This document shows, one piece after another, positions 4,702 through 23,463 of a stretch of DNA of 26,792 nt; position 1 is the stretch's first letter, and every line of letters starts with the position of its first letter. Source of the DNA: a virus; the IMG/VR virus record IMGVR_UViG_3300009182_000277, positions 1-26,792 of that record; one strand, written 5' to 3'. The notes under the pieces are model-generated. The model was not told the DNA's origin. It made no database searches and worked only from the letters and a program-made list of their open reading frames with translations. Both the position numbers and the translations under genes were made by a program.

Positions 4702-6411
4702 TTAAATAAATTTAAATAGCCCAAAAATTGTGCCGGCGTTGTTACTGTAAGCAAGGTAGTTGGCATTTGGTGCACCAAATGTATTAGATGACCCAAACCA
4801 CTTGGCGGCACGGTCTGCGTCAGATACATCAACCCAAGAGCCAGTTCCATCTATTACTCCATCAACTACATTTTGTATCCAACGCTTTGTATCGCAGGTG
4901 GTAAGATTGTACCACCAGGTATCTTCACTTGGAAACTCTGGTGCTGTATTACCCGAGTATACTCGTTGTTCTGCAGCAAAGTAAAGTGTGGTGCCAGTTG
5001 GGTATGTTCCCTTGCGCTCTAGTGCGTAATTGTTATCCATCGCGCCATTGGCATCTTCTAATAGTTCACCGGTTTCTAAACGTGCAAGGCCAAGATTAAA
5101 CAACTCTAATTGACCGTTTAGTAACTTACGAGGTTTTAGATTCTCATCAACATAACAAATAAAGAATTCTTCAGCAACACCTATACCACTGATGTCAATA
5201 GAAGGAATACTAAATGTATGATTGTATCCTCGGCGTAATTCTATTGGTGGACTTTCATTTAAGTAAATGCCTTTACGACCATTGATTGTTTGTTCACTTT
5301 CTTTACCAGTCACTGCCCAACAATTTCTATCGCGGATCCATAAAAACTCAAAAGCTGTTGGCATTGGATCTAATATTGCATTTTCGGTTGGGTTACCACC
5401 TTGATCATTTTTATCACCTGATATAACTGTAGAAGTATATCCGACCAACTTGCCGCAATAGTCGTAAATGGGTTCTTCTTGTGCAAAGAAGGGATCTTGT
5501 GGAGTCAATGCTGTTACTGCTAAACTGTATACTTCTGGACCTAGTATTGGCATCCATATGTTGGCATTTTCAATACCGTCTACTTTTACTGGATAGCTAC
5601 CAGTTTGTTTTATGCCAGCTACCAAAGTTTGTGCTGTGGCTGTTGCACTTTTTAAGTTGGGTACATCAGGTGGTGGGTAAGGTGGATTCCATTGATTGGC
5701 CAATGGTGGTGCGGATGCAACTGTAGGACCACCGCCAGGCGTATATGGCTTACCGGTTGTTAGATCATGCTTATGGCGGAAGTCTGGAAACAGTTGTCTG
5801 TTGATTGATTTATTAAGAGCTTTGTTTACACCTTGCAATCTTTTCTTTAATGCATCCAATTGCTTTCCTGGAATATTTCCCATGTTACCAACGTGCTTGC
5901 TTAGACTTCCTAAGATACTGTCAGGGTTGTAACCTCCGCCGGCTCCGATGCCACCATTGCCAGATAAACAAATACTGGGTTTGGCCAAACGACCTAAATC
6001 GTTTAAAATTGCATTCAATTCCCTATACTCAGCGTCAATGACTTGGCCAATGACATCAGGAATCAACGGTGCCCTCAATGGAATTTTACATAGGCCATCT
6101 AACGCCAATAAACTTTGTACTTCTGCAATTGCAGCATTTATACGGCCCAATGTTTCTGGAATACCTGCCAGTGCTTCGGCTGCTTTTAATTGGTCACGCA
6201 CATCCTTTAGTTCATCCTTGAGGTCACCTAGACCAGCAAGCCCTGCTTCTTCAGCCATCTTGCTAAGGTCAAAGTTTACGCATAATAGCGGACCTTTGAG
6301 CATGTTGTTGATACCACCAAACAAGATAGCACAAATGATATCTTTAACGGGCTTGTTAAGAATGCCTTTGGTTGCAACGCTGACTCCGGGAATAACTGGG
6401 ATATTTGCCAT
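4702..6411 (-). CDS. large virion/baseplate-type structural protein
   Basis: 569 aa, the largest protein of the tail-tip cluster. Residues 1-140 are helical with coiled-coil-like stretches (KMAEEAGLAGLGDLKDELKD). A Gly/Pro-rich linker follows (about 150-260: GIGAGGGYNP, TPGGGPTVAS, NPPYPPPDVPN). The C-terminal 300 residues are rich in beta-type sequence, Trp and Tyr (TWWYNLTTCDTKRWIQNVV), like receptor-facing or baseplate proteins. It lies directly downstream of the PAAR and M15 peptidase genes. A near-late box CATAAGTA (6426-6419) lies 7 bases before the ATG. Baseplate hub or a short fibre component is the best guess; I cannot name a T4 counterpart. Confidence 0.65.
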   Translation of the reverse strand: MANIPVIPGVSVATKGILNKPVKDIICAILFGGINNMLKGPLLCVNFDLSKMAEEAGLAGLGDLKDELKDVRDQLKAAEALAGIPETLGRINAAIAEVQSLLALDGLCKIPLRAPLIPDVIGQVIDAEYRELNAILNDLGRLAKPSICLSGNGGIGAGGGYNPDSILGSLSKHVGNMGNIPGKQLDALKKRLQGVNKALNKSINRQLFPDFRHKHDLTTGKPYTPGGGPTVASAPPLANQWNPPYPPPDVPNLKSATATAQTLVAGIKQTGSYPVKVDGIENANIWMPILGPEVYSLAVTALTPQDPFFAQEEPIYDYCGKLVGYTSTVISGDKNDQGGNPTENAILDPMPTAFEFLWIRDRNCWAVTGKESEQTINGRKGIYLNESPPIELRRGYNHTFSIPSIDISGIGVAEEFFICYVDENLKPRKLLNGQLELFNLGLARLETGELLEDANGAMDNNYALERKGTYPTGTTLYFAAEQRVYSGNTAPEFPSEDTWWYNLTTCDTKRWIQNVVDGVIDGTGSWVDVSDADRAAKWFGSSNTFGAPNANYLAYSNNAGTIFGLFKFI

Positions 6412-6421
6412 AGTGTGTTAC

Positions 6422-7093
6422 TTATGCCCAGCGTAGGTCTGGTGGCAATGCTGAACCGCCGCGACCGCCGCCATTTTGATAAGGCGCTGAACCATTGCGG
6501 GCTACCAGTACTGCTACACTTGCAGGACTTGCTCCGTTGTAGGCCACGTGTACCCAACGTCCTTCAAAGATCAATTGACTGAATGGCAAACCAGATGCGC
6601 CAATCCACTTGAACATTTTCTTTGCTCCTTCAACTGCATCACCTTGCAACAGTTGAATGTCTGCCGCTTTGCCTTTGGTATGGTCACTTGTGGTTGACCC
6701 GTCAAACGAAGTTGGGCGGAATCCTGAACTGATACTCATACCTGGAAACTCAGCTTTGACTTTGTCTAATATGTTTTCGCAAAGAGCTTTCCAATTACAT
6801 GCTGCAGTTTTTGTTGTGACGCTGCCGCCAACTGGTTTACGATTCATGTGTGAATATCTGAATGATTTACTACAACCTTTGTCCCACATGCTGTCATCAT
6901 ATTCAGCACAGTCTGTAGGCTCATTGGTATCTGGAGGGCCAGGTGGTTGTCCGCCTTCGCCGGCTCCAGCACCCATTGTTTTGGCCATGTCAGAACGCAT
7001 GGCAGCATCGCCTTCGGGTGTATTAGGGTAATATATTACCCCGCTTTCTGTTGTTAATCTTGCACCTGAGCCAGGCGCTTTTGCATCACACAT
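6422..7093 (-). CDS. tail-associated peptidoglycan peptidase, M15 family
   Basis: 223 aa. A central M15 (D-Ala-D-Ala carboxypeptidase / VanY-like) domain spans about residues 100-190. Visible elements are GFRP (R126), SDHTKGKAAD (zinc ligands H138 and D145), E177 and WVH (H182 as third ligand). It would cleave peptide crosslinks in murein. It is flanked by low-complexity arms: residues 41-60 rich in G/P, and a Gly-rich tail ending DLRWA. No signal peptide. Its place between a PAAR tip and a large baseplate-type protein suggests a tail-borne enzyme used at entry, in place of the T4 gp5 lysozyme domain; a lysis endolysin is the alternative. Translation may be controlled by the hairpin at 7096-7127, which covers its GGGAGA site. 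Confidence 0.8.
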   Translation of the reverse strand: MCDAKAPGSGARLTTESGVIYYPNTPEGDAAMRSDMAKTMGAGAGEGGQPPGPPDTNEPTDCAEYDDSMWDKGCSKSFRYSHMNRKPVGGSVTTKTAACNWKALCENILDKVKAEFPGMSISSGFRPTSFDGSTTSDHTKGKAADIQLLQGDAVEGAKKMFKWIGASGLPFSQLIFEGRWVHVAYNGASPASVAVLVARNGSAPYQNGGGRGGSALPPDLRWA

Positions 7094-7095
7094 GT

Positions 7096-7127
7096 TGAAA
7101 TCTCCCAGGTATTTATGGGAGATTTCA
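7096..7127 (-). promoter_or_regulatory. hairpin over the RBS with a late-promoter box in its loop
   Basis: Perfect 12-bp inverted repeat TGAAATCTCCCA (7127-7116) / TGGGAGATTTCA (7107-7096) on the minus strand, with an 8-base loop. The second arm holds the GGGAGA ribosome-binding site of the M15 gene, whose ATG starts 3 bases later. CATAAATA (7117-7110), a T4-type late box, occupies the loop. Read-through transcripts would fold and hide the site. Late transcripts starting near 7104 would lack the first arm and be translatable. Confidence 0.7.
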
Positions 7128-7129
7128 TT

Positions 7130-7399
7130 TTAACCTACGTGTACATCAGGGCTACCGTCTGCCCGACTATCGCCGCAAGTATCAGCGTCACCTTCCCTAT
7201 TTACAGGAATTCCACCAATAAAAACAGTAGGGCTACCGTTTGCAGTGGTTGTGTCATTGATCTCGCCTGTTCTATGATCAGATACTGTACTGCCATCAAC
7301 GCTGGCCAATTGCCCATTGACGTAGACAGTACCTTGTGGCACATCTTCAATTATGCCGCCATCATCGTTGGCATCACCCTGGCGATGTACCGCTGGCAT
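7130..7399 (-). CDS. 5.4: PAAR-repeat tail-spike tip protein (T4 gp5.4-like)
   Basis: 89-aa PAAR-fold protein, usual length for gp5.4-type tips. It begins MPAVHRQGDANDDGG, then shows repeated short Gly/Val strands: GTVYVNGQLASVDG, SPTVFIGGIPVNREGDADTCG and a closing GSPDVHVG. Conserved His/Cys positions (H5, the Cys in DTCG, H87) could bind the metal that stabilises the cone. It caps the central spike of contractile tails and pierces the outer membrane. The stop of the preceding gene overlaps its start by one base, and the peptidase gene follows after the hairpin, so tip, enzyme and structural protein form one module. Confidence 0.88.
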   Translation of the reverse strand: MPAVHRQGDANDDGGIIEDVPQGTVYVNGQLASVDGSTVSDHRTGEINDTTTANGSPTVFIGGIPVNREGDADTCGDSRADGSPDVHVG

Positions 7400-7713
7400 T
7401 AGAACTTCAATCCAGCTGGCGCAACTTGGATACCACTCATAGCACTGCTGTATTGATCAGCAAGTTCTTTGTCAGTATTAGCCACGCACACTACCAGTGC
7501 TCGGTTGATCTTTAGATTGCGTGTGTTGGCAGGATTAACTGTCATCAGGTACGGAGTAAGTGCTGGGCCACCTTTGGGACCAACACTTAGTGTTACTGGG
7601 CGATCAATGGTGTACGTTAAGCTATCGTCATCTTTGTAAGTACCAATAAGTTCTTCGCCTGAACTCATTTTTAGAGTCACTACATCACCATCACGTTTGA
7701 CATCAATTAACAT
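7399..7713 (-). CDS. small SH3/Sm-like beta-barrel protein
   Basis: 104 aa. The first 50 residues (MLIDVKRDGDVVTLKMSSGE, then LIGTYKDDDSLTYTIDRPVTL) have the strand pattern of a small Sm-like or SH3-like barrel, which recurs in T4-like cyanophages near structural genes. The C-terminal part (about 65-104) is a helical tail. A ribosome-binding site (AAGGA, 7 bases before ATG) follows directly after the NrdB stop. Whether it is a virion protein or an RNA-binding Hfq-like protein cannot be decided from sequence; its neighbours favour a tail role. Confidence 0.62.
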   Translation of the reverse strand: MLIDVKRDGDVVTLKMSSGEELIGTYKDDDSLTYTIDRPVTLSVGPKGGPALTPYLMTVNPANTRNLKINRALVVCVANTDKELADQYSSAMSGIQVAPAGLKF

Positions 7714-7721
7714 TTTTTTCC

Positions 7722-8819
7722 TTAAAGTTTAAATCCAGCAAAGGTATCTTTGCTTACGTCTTGTTTAATACCACCAATAACATAACTTTCAATTTCTGTT
7801 TCCTGTGGCGCTACTTGCAGGCCCTTGCTGCTGGTCCAATGATCTGTCCAAGGCAAAGGATTGTCATTGGCACTGCGATCATAACGTGTTTCAACACCAA
7901 GACCTTTTAGTCGTTTGTTGGCAATATACTCAACATACTGATGTAATAGTTTTGCGTTAAGGCCAACAATGGCGCCACGGCTAAACAAATAGTCTGCCCA
8001 GTCTTTTTCTTCTGCAACAACTTGATCATAGATTTCGCCAATCAAATGCAAGTTGGCATTGGCAATTTCTTGCATCTCAGGATCATCACCTTTGAGCCAA
8101 TTTTTAATAATATGGCTTGTGATACTTAAATGTTGACTTTCATCACGTGCAATCAAACTAATAATCTTAGCACTGCCTTCCATCTTCTTTAATTCACCAA
8201 AGGCAAAACTGCAAGCAAAGCTGACATAAAAGCGAAGTGCTTCAAGCGCATTGACATTGACCATTGCTAAAAATAGTTTTGTTTTAACTTCACGCAAGGT
8301 ACCCTTGCCGCCATGTGTGTATGCTCCAGAGATTTCAATAAACTCGTCGTAGCTTTTTGTCACACTTTTAGCACGAGCAATAATTTTTTCATCTTCTAAT
8401 AGGGTGTCAAACACTTCACTTGGATTACTATAGATATTTTTAATGATGTGCGTATAACTACGGCTATGGATGTTTTCAAAAAACTGCCAGGTATTCATGC
8501 ATCCTTCAAGCTCGGGCAGTGTGCAATAAGGCATAAATGCAATTGCTGGCGCACGACCTTGAACTGAATCTAATAAAATTTGATACTTGAGATTTGAAGT
8601 AAAGATAAACTTCTGCTCGTCACGGAAGTCCATATAGTCACCGCGATCTTTTTGCAGTGACACTTCTTCAGGTCGCCAGAAGTAGCCAAGTTGTGTTTGT
8701 GTTAGCTTATCAAACACAGGATACTTGAATGTGTCAAATCGTTGGGCATTGAGTGCTTCACCAAAAAACATAGGCTGTTTGGTGAAGTCTACTTTATCCT
8801 TGTTAAAAACTGTTGACAT
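7722..8819 (-). CDS. nrdB: ribonucleotide reductase class Ia, beta subunit
   Basis: 365 aa, close to E. coli NrdB (376). The di-iron and radical site is complete and even numbered alike: D84, E115, H118 and radical Y122 (in ENIHSRSYTHI), then E193, E227 and H230 (ARDESQHL). It generates the tyrosyl radical used by NrdA to reduce ribonucleoside diphosphates, feeding dNTPs to phage DNA synthesis. It lies 9 bases downstream of nrdA in the same direction. The start region has only a weak site (AAGAAAA). Lytic T4-like phages normally carry this pair. Confidence 0.97.
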   Translation of the reverse strand: MSTVFNKDKVDFTKQPMFFGEALNAQRFDTFKYPVFDKLTQTQLGYFWRPEEVSLQKDRGDYMDFRDEQKFIFTSNLKYQILLDSVQGRAPAIAFMPYCTLPELEGCMNTWQFFENIHSRSYTHIIKNIYSNPSEVFDTLLEDEKIIARAKSVTKSYDEFIEISGAYTHGGKGTLREVKTKLFLAMVNVNALEALRFYVSFACSFAFGELKKMEGSAKIISLIARDESQHLSITSHIIKNWLKGDDPEMQEIANANLHLIGEIYDQVVAEEKDWADYLFSRGAIVGLNAKLLHQYVEYIANKRLKGLGVETRYDRSANDNPLPWTDHWTSSKGLQVAPQETEIESYVIGGIKQDVSKDTFAGFKL

Positions 8820-8828
8820 ATTATTTTC

Positions 8829-11159
8829 TTAGATTGTGCAGGCTTCACAAGCCTCAGAATCGTCATCATTGACTTGTTCTAATTGTAACATAGGTGCGGT
8901 GGTGGTGTCAAGTGTATCCTCGTCCTCACCTTTCATATCATATGTGTTTTGGTAATACGAAGTCTTCCAACCCAACTTGTAAGTGGTCAATAAGTCACGG
9001 AACATAACACTCATTGGCACTTCATTGTTGGGATAATGCTTGGGATTGTAACTCCAATTGCCCGAAATAGCTTGGTCAAAGTATTTTTGCATTGCCGCAA
9101 CAATTTTAACGTAACCATCTTGGACGCCTTCTTCATACAGGTATGAATAGTTGTTTTTCAAACTGCCGTATTGTGGGACAATTTGCTTGAGTGGTCCTTT
9201 TTTGCTCTTCTTAGTACTCATTGCTGCACGTGGTGGCTCAATGCCGTTGGTTTCGTTAGATGCAACAGAACTGGATTCGCTGGGCATTTGTGCGCTGAGT
9301 GTGCTGTGACGCATGCCGTGTTCAGCGATTTCGCGGCGTAACAATTCCCAATCGTAATGCAAGTCTGTGCCCAGAAACTCATCAACATCACGCTTGTATG
9401 TGTCAATAGGCAGAATGCCTTGGCTGTATTTGGTACGATCGAAGTATTCACAACGACCTTTTTCTTTTGCCAGTTCAACGCTGGCCTTGATCAAGTAGTA
9501 TTGAAACGCTTCTGTTAAGCGATTAACTGATTGTGCTGCTTCTAAGTCAGAATACTTTAGACCCTTCTTGGCCAAGTAATGTGCAAGGCCAATATAACCA
9601 ATGCCAAGACTACGACGAGACTTTGTACTGATCTCTGCGGCAATAACTGGATAACGCTGATAGTCAATAATCTGATCCAACGCACGAACAGCCAGTTCAG
9701 TCAAATTCTTCAAGTCATCTAATTCTCGAACATTGCCTACATTGATGGCACTTAGAATACAAAGAGCAATTTCGCCTTCCTTGTCATCCAGCGACTGAAT
9801 AGGATCAGTTGGCAATGTAATTTCTTGGCACAAGTTGCTCATACGCACCATGTCTGTAAAACTGCTGTGGCTGTTGCAATGGTCAATGTTCATGATATAG
9901 ATACGACCAGTTTCTGCACGTTCTTTTAGAATCTCCCCAAACAGTTCCATGGCCTTGACTGTTTTCTTGCTAATCTTAGAATCATTTTCGTACTTGACAT
10001 ACAATGCATCAAACACTTCGTTGTTACCAAATGCTTCGTACAAGCCTGGAACTTCGTGCGGAGAGAACAAGGTAATATCACCATTGGCCAACAAGCGTTC
10101 GTAAAAGATCTTGCTCAATTGAATTGAGTAATCAAGTTTACGCACACGATTATCTTCTGTGCCTTTGTTATTTTTTAAAACAACAACATCTTCAATTTCT
10201 TTGTGCCAAATTGGAAAATGTACTGTGGCACTTCCGCCACGTACACCATTTTGCGTACAGCTACGCACCACTGATTCAAATACTTTTAAGAAAGGAATAA
10301 CACCGGTATGAGCAACTTCACCTCCGCGAATCTTAGAATTGATAGCACGGATGCGGCCAACGTTCAAACCAATGCCAGCACGTTGAGCAATGTAATAACC
10401 AACGGCGGTAGAACTGTTAAAGATTGAAGGCAATGTGTCATCAACATCAACTAATACGCAACTGGCAAATTGACGAATAGGTGTACGTACACCACTCATC
10501 ACAGGAGTAGGAATGTTGATCTTAAATGTAGAGATAGCATCGTAGTAACGACGAATAAAACTCAGGCGCTTATCAGCAGGATATGTAGCAAACAGCGTTG
10601 CGGCAATCATCATGTACATATACTGTGGAGTTTCGTAGATGTGTCCATTGCTGCGATCTTGAACAAGATATTTGTCTACCACTTGGCGCATACCTGCGTA
10701 TGTAAAGTCTAAGTCACGTTGGTGATTGATGTAAACATCAAGTTGGCGCCATTCTGCTTCAGTATATTGAGTCAACAATTCAGCATCATATACACCACGT
10801 TCAACGTTCTTATTAACTAGGTCATACAATGGAATATAATCAAATTTTCCAAATACGTCCTTGCGTAAACCGTATAGCAATAAACGGGCGGCGGCATACT
10901 GATATTTTGGCTTGTCTAGACTAATTAAATCGCTGGCACTGCGTACTAGGATTTCTTGGATATCTGCTGTTGTGATGCCATCATTGAATTGTAAATCTGC
11001 ATTCATTTCTATTTGGCTAACACTTACACCAGCCAAACCCTCACATGCTTCTTCAACCATTAAATGGATTTTGTTAATATCTAACGGCTCTTTATGTCCG
11101 TCTCTTTTTACTACATTGATTTCTGATTTACTCATATTTCCTTTTAACTCAATTTTCAT
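8829..11159 (-). CDS. nrdA: ribonucleotide reductase class Ia, alpha subunit
   Basis: 776 aa. The N-terminal ATP-cone (about 10-100; VVKRDGHKEPLDINKIH) binds allosteric effectors. Catalytic residues match E. coli NrdA: C234 (FASCVLVD), N442, C444 and E446 (SNLCQEITLPT), C467 (EIALCILSA), the radical-relay Tyr pair in SYYQNTYD, and a C-terminal CEACTI pair that is re-reduced by a thioredoxin or glutaredoxin. The ATG at 11159 has AGGAGA 5 bases upstream. It carries an extra MKIELKGN before the usual MSKSEI start; M9 could be an alternative start. The 60 bases upstream hold no convincing promoter. Confidence 0.97.
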   Translation of the reverse strand: MKIELKGNMSKSEINVVKRDGHKEPLDINKIHLMVEEACEGLAGVSVSQIEMNADLQFNDGITTADIQEILVRSASDLISLDKPKYQYAAARLLLYGLRKDVFGKFDYIPLYDLVNKNVERGVYDAELLTQYTEAEWRQLDVYINHQRDLDFTYAGMRQVVDKYLVQDRSNGHIYETPQYMYMMIAATLFATYPADKRLSFIRRYYDAISTFKINIPTPVMSGVRTPIRQFASCVLVDVDDTLPSIFNSSTAVGYYIAQRAGIGLNVGRIRAINSKIRGGEVAHTGVIPFLKVFESVVRSCTQNGVRGGSATVHFPIWHKEIEDVVVLKNNKGTEDNRVRKLDYSIQLSKIFYERLLANGDITLFSPHEVPGLYEAFGNNEVFDALYVKYENDSKISKKTVKAMELFGEILKERAETGRIYIMNIDHCNSHSSFTDMVRMSNLCQEITLPTDPIQSLDDKEGEIALCILSAINVGNVRELDDLKNLTELAVRALDQIIDYQRYPVIAAEISTKSRRSLGIGYIGLAHYLAKKGLKYSDLEAAQSVNRLTEAFQYYLIKASVELAKEKGRCEYFDRTKYSQGILPIDTYKRDVDEFLGTDLHYDWELLRREIAEHGMRHSTLSAQMPSESSSVASNETNGIEPPRAAMSTKKSKKGPLKQIVPQYGSLKNNYSYLYEEGVQDGYVKIVAAMQKYFDQAISGNWSYNPKHYPNNEVPMSVMFRDLLTTYKLGWKTSYYQNTYDMKGEDEDTLDTTTAPMLQLEQVNDDDSEACEACTI

Positions 11160-22596: not shown

Positions 22597-23450
22597 TTTA
22601 AGTTAAGATAATCGGAGGTTGAGTTAGTATCAATCCAAAGTTTATCAGTGCCTTGGTATTTTGCAATACTTCTATCAAGCAAATCCACATATTGATTCAC
22701 TTGCTGAGTCGTCTCAAGTTTATCTCTCCAAATAAACAAGATCTTTCTAGCAGTAGGACTCCAGGTACTTGAATGTTTGGTTCTCAAATTATTCCATGCG
22801 TAAGAATTTGATTCTTCTGTCCTTGGTAAAGAGATGTAGGTGTTGTTATGTTCCTTGATTGGATCAGTTAGAAGTTGCAATGTTTCCTGAGGATTTCTAT
22901 CAAATAATTTGATACGCATTGACAATGGCATGTCAATCATACTGGTATGATCTCTGTGTGGCGGAATTTTTTTTGCACTTGACCACATATTCCATTTAAA
23001 ATTTTTGCCTCCAGCCCAAGGCATCAGATCATGGATTTGTTCAAAAATTTCTGGGAATTCTGTGTAAATTGATTCAACAATGTTTCGTGTCCAAACTGGA
23101 GTCCAGTTATCTGCAATGCTATCAATTGACAAGTATGTTGATTTAGTAGACTTAAATGTACCAGAACTTAAATCTTCAATTTGCTTGCCTGCATGTTTGC
23201 CATTTTTAAAAAAGAAAACAACAAATTTTTGTATATCATTGGGTTGTATCTTTGGAAGATCATATGGAACAAACAAATACTTGCCGTATGTTTGTTCAAG
23301 TTCAGAATACAAAGTTTTAACTTCTGGTAACTGATTTAACTCAATACTTCTAAGTTGTGTTAAATTTTCTTTGGTCTCAGTGATAACACCATCATCTGTA
23401 CGTTCTACATTTGGTGCTGTATATACTGGTTGGTCGATTTCGTTGCTCAT
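22593..23450 (-). CDS. 2OG-Fe(II) oxygenase-like / aspartyl-hydroxylase-like protein
   Basis: 285 aa. Central HxD pair H165-R-D167 (IPPHRDHTS), then a downstream H226 and R235 (RTKHSSTWSPTARKILFIW), the spacing of aspartyl/asparaginyl beta-hydroxylase-type oxygenases. N-terminal 60 residues are variable and acidic; the C-terminal 45 residues are helical. Substrate unknown. It differs clearly from the oxygenase-like protein at 60-701. A late box (CATAAATA) sits 5 bases before the ATG, so expression is late and the mRNA may be leaderless. Fold assignment rests on motif spacing only. Confidence 0.6.
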   Translation of the reverse strand: MSNEIDQPVYTAPNVERTDDGVITETKENLTQLRSIELNQLPEVKTLYSELEQTYGKYLFVPYDLPKIQPNDIQKFVVFFFKNGKHAGKQIEDLSSGTFKSTKSTYLSIDSIADNWTPVWTRNIVESIYTEFPEIFEQIHDLMPWAGGKNFKWNMWSSAKKIPPHRDHTSMIDMPLSMRIKLFDRNPQETLQLLTDPIKEHNNTYISLPRTEESNSYAWNNLRTKHSSTWSPTARKILFIWRDKLETTQQVNQYVDLLDRSIAKYQGTDKLWIDTNSTSDYLNLN

Positions 23451-23455
23451 AGCAG

Positions 23456-23463
23456 TATTTATG
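23456..23463 (-). promoter_or_regulatory. late promoter box, leaderless arrangement
   Basis: Minus strand CATAAATA (23463-23456), then CTGCT and the ATG at 23450: the same 5-base spacing as at 22171. It overlaps the last codons of the DnaE-like gene. Confidence 0.65.

Follow-up and report, generated by a model that had tools for sequence, protein, structure and literature searches.

Lysozyme synthesis from the long RNA of bacteriophage T4 gene e is cut approximately 100-fold, and the late transcripts of this gene lack the left strand of the hairpin (PMC3014915). T4 soc and gene 49 are also named as carrying translational hairpins (PMC3014915). In the homing endonuclease genes I-TevI, I-TevII and segB of T4 and mobE of Aeh1, read-through RNA has its ribosome site tied up in a hairpin, and a late promoter is located at or inside this hairpin; T4 genes under hairpin control are late-type genes that end early or middle runs (PMC2988022). 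Here, we describe an element upstream of an M15 peptidase gene in a 26.8-kb stretch of viral DNA (the window). Its features are those of a timing lock acting in cis on translation, like that of T4 gene e, and we consider this reading very probable. The timing lock of T4 lysozyme, known chiefly from coliphages and from homing endonucleases, would then extend to a broad, uncultured clade of T4-like phages. In that clade it would be a selected, covarying element on an unrelated murein enzyme, and a case of convergent control over an enzyme that would be harmful if produced too soon. The approach also offers a sequence-only route to spotting late-only genes in metagenomes.

The hairpin at the M15 gene and its counterpart in T4

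A 12-bp inverted repeat with 100% complementarity precedes the M15 gene on the minus strand, with arms at 7096-7107 and 7116-7127 and an 8-nt spacer. In minus-strand order, the region upstream of M15 reads TGAAATCTCCCA-TAAATACC-TGGGAGATTTCA-AC-ATG. The left (5') arm (7116..7127) is predicted to be present only on read-through RNA. It is followed by the loop (7108..7115) and the right (3') arm (7096..7107), which spans the ribosome-binding site. The Shine-Dalgarno-like GGGAGA (SD; 7101..7106) is wholly within the right arm, with its GGAG core 8 nt ahead of the ATG, and the ATG itself (7093-7091) lies immediately beyond the stem. The arms and the SD position confirm the perfect repeat over GGGAGA that the earlier note had reported. 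A T4-type late promoter box, CATAAATA (7110..7117, minus strand), had been assigned to the loop. Most of the box is indeed there, but C7117 and A7116 are the final two bases of the left arm.

Perfect stems of at least 12 bp with loops of 3–25 nt are rare; the window contains two, against a mean of 0.05 in local shuffles. The other, at 2607-2637, is intergenic, is followed by a T-rich stretch and resembles an ordinary terminator. A search of Rfam found no family matching the M15 hairpin, and the only matches in the window were to tmRNA. The 52-nt read-through RNA has a predicted folding energy of −18.1 kcal/mol (z = −4.0; 0 of 200 shuffles were equally stable), and GGGAGA has a predicted unpaired probability of 0.00. 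In the predicted fold of the late RNA form, which begins at 7104, the ribosome site is free of structure. The two transcript forms thus behave in silico as the earlier note had proposed, the long RNA hiding the SD and the late form leaving it open.

We propose that RNA reading through from nrdA-nrdB-phrog_527-PAAR would carry both arms and form the 12-bp stem, which would bury GGGAGA and prevent early synthesis of the M15 peptidase. Late in infection, a gp55-type RNA polymerase would start from CATAAATA at about base 7104. From the geometry, the resulting mRNA would lack the left arm, and its ribosome site would be open. In support, the sequence shows the hairpin and the box at a fixed spacing, a left arm under purifying selection, and changes that preserve pairing. 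The hairpin switch put forward in the earlier note fits the conserved left arm, the compensatory changes, the gene e-like geometry of box and SD, and the placement of late-type genes behind nrdA-nrdB.

The scan, when run on T4, recovered gene e (AATACCTTCTATAAATACTTAGGAGGTATTATG), segB and I-TevII. The M15 locus resembles gene e in having a late-type gene behind early/middle-type ones, a stem that hides the SD on the long RNA, a murein-degrading product, and a late box between the arms; the spacing from ATAAATA to the SD is 3 nt in both. It differs in that its product is a Zn peptidase, non-homologous to lysozyme, and in that its hairpin has another sequence and sits after nrdA-nrdB and PAAR. 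Furthermore, the gene e lock is experimentally proven (PMC3014915; McPheeters et al. 1986, cited therein), whereas the M15 lock is a prediction. The endonuclease hairpins have the same arrangement, and relatives of the window carry such hairpins at HNH and GIY-YIG endonuclease genes; those are genes of mobile elements, whereas M15 belongs to the structural or lysis genes of the phage. For T4 soc and gene 49, the likeness is by description, in that the initiation region of a late gene is sequestered on early RNA, and their products differ from M15. The M15 lock would join this known group (e, soc, 49, I-TevI), the novelty being a non-homologous enzyme. Timing control had been suggested to be inherited or else convergent. 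The M15 enzyme is unrelated to T4 lysozyme, and the hairpin of three relatives (L076-L078, below) is built differently, so convergence with T4 gene e is the most likely origin and inheritance is less favoured.

Conservation and pairing of the element in relatives

Relatives were found by protein and DNA-pattern searches, with full-length protein identities down to approximately 48%. The hairpin is present on 45 contigs, including the window, in 23 distinct versions that share one register between box and SD. Most relatives keep 27–31 of the 32 element bases, whereas their M15 coding DNA is 62–80% identical; the element is nearly invariant even where this figure is only 62–70%. Over the 40 nt preceding the element, identity is often just 17–38%, which is near random. 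In T4 late promoters, the −35 position lacks sequence conservation (PMC2988020). That the left arm is conserved therefore needs another cause, of which pairing is the simplest. Judged by these comparisons, the left arm is under purifying selection.

Pairing was assessed on the 23 distinct versions, comparing the cells of the arms with shuffles and with shifted partners. Standard pairs were formed in 93.8% of arm cells. Two-sided changes occurred in 14 cells against 5.0 ± 2.0 in shuffles (0/500), and the covariation score was 0.130 against 0.073. When the partner was slid by 1–3 columns, pairing was at most 57%. In L053/L084, AAATCTCCC...GGGAGATTT has become AAAGCCTTCC...GGGAGGCTTT, with adjacent compensatory swaps of U-A to C-G and A-U to G-C, and one change of C-G to U-G. 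In the M15 tree, an outer G-C to A-U swap is found on several separate branches. The A/T-rich outer pairs hold most of the two-sided changes; the stem core beside the loop hardly varies, so its near-invariant pairs contribute no information on covariation.

These compensatory changes, which show that selection maintains the pairing, are what the earlier note had expected of relatives, and it had counted loss of pairing without compensation against the switch. Pairing is mostly kept, with exceptions. Each of the two outermost pairs is unformed in 7–8 of the 23 versions (L012, L052 and L065 are among those losing outer pairs), L054 has one internal A-A mismatch, and L080 has the box and GAGG without such a hairpin. 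The SD is still predicted to be hidden in the folds of L012 and L054. L076-L078 have a different hairpin at M15, AAATAGCCC/GGGCTATTT, with the box within the left arm. Late initiation would again strip this hairpin, although its hiding of the SD is weaker (unpaired 0.29).

The gene directly before M15, at loci with enough flank, encodes PAAR, a PAAR-CHAP fusion or a protein of 163–191 aa. Because the element is constant while the adjacent upstream gene changes, it belongs to M15. This bears on the possibility that the hairpin serves chiefly to end the nrd-PAAR transcript, as an intrinsic terminator, or to stabilize its 3' end, and hides the SD as a by-product. The hairpin does lie 2–3 nt past the PAAR stop codon, and a U-tract follows the stem in some relatives (L071: TGGGAGATTTTTTTTATG). 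We nevertheless regard this explanation as unlikely: in the window the stem is followed by ACATG rather than a U-tract, the terminator scan omits the element, the U-tract is variable where stem, box and SD spacing are constant, and the element goes with M15, not PAAR.

It is still harder to see the palindrome as a DNA operator, where a protein would occupy a site of two-fold symmetry that covers the late promoter. The palindrome is near-invariant and overlaps the promoter, and I-TevI is known to bind at, and repress, its own late promoter (PMC2988022). Yet the changes in L053/L084, L058, L067 and L030 keep pairing and not sequence, L076-L078 differ in sequence with the same fold logic, and there is no known candidate for the binding protein; we therefore give the operator very little weight. 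Least credible is the view that the element is a DNA module, repeated or recently spread, that owes its sameness to recombination between phages instead of functional selection: T4-like phages do swap modules, and the adjacent upstream genes differ among relatives around an unchanged element, but across all scanned contigs the element was seen solely before M15, and it is kept, with paired arm changes, where the M15 proteins are only about 50% identical.

Late initiation and predicted leaderless genes

The predicted late 5' end is at 7104..7105 (minus strand), the fifth or sixth base past the box, giving an 11–12-nt leader. This placement derives from T4 numbering and from boxes located 4–5 nt before an ATG. 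The first base of the T4 late box is at −13 (PMC2988020), so +1 is the sixth base past the box and, with a gap of 5, coincides with the A of the ATG. The calculated late 5' end lies within the SD for both T4 gene e and M15. If initiation occurs exactly at the sixth base, the late RNA keeps just GAG of the SD, and by the same calculation T4 gene e keeps GAGG.

By itself, CATAAATA shows no enrichment in the window, with 38 one-mismatch sites against 39 expected; the significance of the box comes from the relatives and from its position rather than from its frequency in the window. Of 96 distinct ATAAATA sites in the clade, 28 lie 4–5 nt ahead of the ATG of an ORF. The corresponding share is 0–3% for most control 7-mers and 13% for TAAATAA, a control that overlaps the box. 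The spacing is an independent signal in favour of the promoter and also of a start at 7104 (or 7105), as predicted. Judged by its position, ATAAATA functions as a late signal in this clade. A gp55-type sigma factor is encoded in a 177.7-kb relative, G001 (phrog_12791, E = 2.9e-77); none was shown on the 26.8-kb window fragment.

Boxes with this spacing were observed in the window at 23450-23463 (minus strand) and at loci L003, L005, L010, L019, L094, L097-L099 and L104-L106. The corresponding genes are predicted to have leaderless late mRNAs, unlike those of T4. If true, this would be a clear break from T4 and the less expected part of our findings. The spacing also occurs in Pelagibacter phage Mosig (5/35), and it was absent from the partial genomes of T4 (0/44), S-PM2 (0/21) and P-SSM2 (0/10) that were compared. 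We found no report of leaderless T4-like late genes in the open-licence papers searched.

Stems of at least 10 bp enclose 4 of 64 non-M15 late boxes, a modest excess over the roughly 1% at control 7-mers. L101 (G004) has a perfect 13-bp stem at 6770-6812 (plus strand), CATAGGTATCTCC/GGAGATACCTATG. Its loop holds a late box, and the stem spans the SD and ATG of a gp13-like neck (head-tail adaptor) gene. Three homing endonuclease genes, one HNH and two GIY-YIG (L097, 3515 and 10897, minus strand; L005, 2119, plus strand), have late boxes within 10-bp stems; the hairpin at the HNH gene has weak predicted SD hiding. In Pelagibacter phage Mosig (L108, ~32985-33025, minus strand), a stem of 13 Watson-Crick pairs is built around a late box and takes in the start codon of Mosig_00118. 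This gene has leaderless spacing and encodes a predicted Asp/Arg hydroxylase.

These arrangements raise the tentative idea, which we would rate at slightly under an even chance, that the clade has two alternative locks against early synthesis of late proteins, either a leaderless box 4–5 nt before the ATG, as at many of its late genes, or a hairpin. If so, read-through RNA would present the box where the SD belongs at leaderless genes, and late genes bearing an SD, such as M15, some endonucleases and the gp13-like neck gene, would be shut by a hairpin that late initiation takes away. The two GIY-YIG endonuclease genes and Mosig_00118 would combine both locks.

The M15 peptidase and its genomic setting

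The M15 gene (6422..7093, minus strand) encodes 223 aa and matches PF08291 (26.9 bits; cut-off 23.2) and phrog_894, labelled endolysin (E = 4.4e-15). The candidate Zn ligands H138, D145 and H182 are invariant across 12 relatives, which is consistent with an active Zn peptidase. The AlphaFold model is weak (pLDDT 60.8), and Foldseek gave weak matches to M15/LAS-type peptidases, all with E > 0.1. The enzyme had been called a tail peptidase. Its PAAR and PAAR-CHAP neighbours do suggest a tail role, but the endolysin label that PHROGs gives the M15 domain suggests a role in lysis; the structural model and its matches favour neither. M15 is the single match to phrog_894 in each of four relatives examined. 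A search of four relatives with T4 gp5, made without a positive control, did not find the hub lysozyme. An early supply of the enzyme could harm the host wall whether its role is in the tail or in lysis, which would explain a lock in either case.

Directly upstream of M15 on the same strand is the PAAR protein gene (7130..7399). It is preceded by a small conserved gene of unknown function (phrog_527; 7399..7713, minus strand), before which the ATAAATA box is absent, and by nrdB and nrdA (ribonucleotide reductase; 7722..11159, minus strand), the presumed source of read-through. The order nrdA-nrdB-phrog_527-PAAR, all on one strand upstream of M15, is also kept in relatives. M15 would thus be a late-type gene closing an early/middle-type run. 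A 569-aa gene of unknown function with no family match (4702..6411, minus strand) lies 10 nt downstream of M15 and is probably co-expressed with it from the late promoter. The window NrdA is 68–69% identical to NrdA of T4-like marine phages, and other window genes match the DnaB-like helicase, primase and phage DNA helicase families; together, these indicate that the window is a fragment of a T4-like phage.

In L084 (2988-3965) and L066 (2951-3964), both on the plus strand, the PAAR protein is longer than that of the window. The CHAP-like C-terminal domain of the L084 protein matches a family annotated as baseplate hub subunit and tail lysozyme, hinting at a murein enzyme at the puncturing tip. 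The window also encodes a permuted phage tmRNA (3669-4092, minus strand), for which ARAGORN gives the tag ANDSQFALVA and Rfam gives matches to tmRNA_permuted and beta_tmRNA. A sigma-70-like TTGACA...TATACT is immediately upstream of it, and a tmRNA is annotated in Pelagibacter phage Mosig as well.
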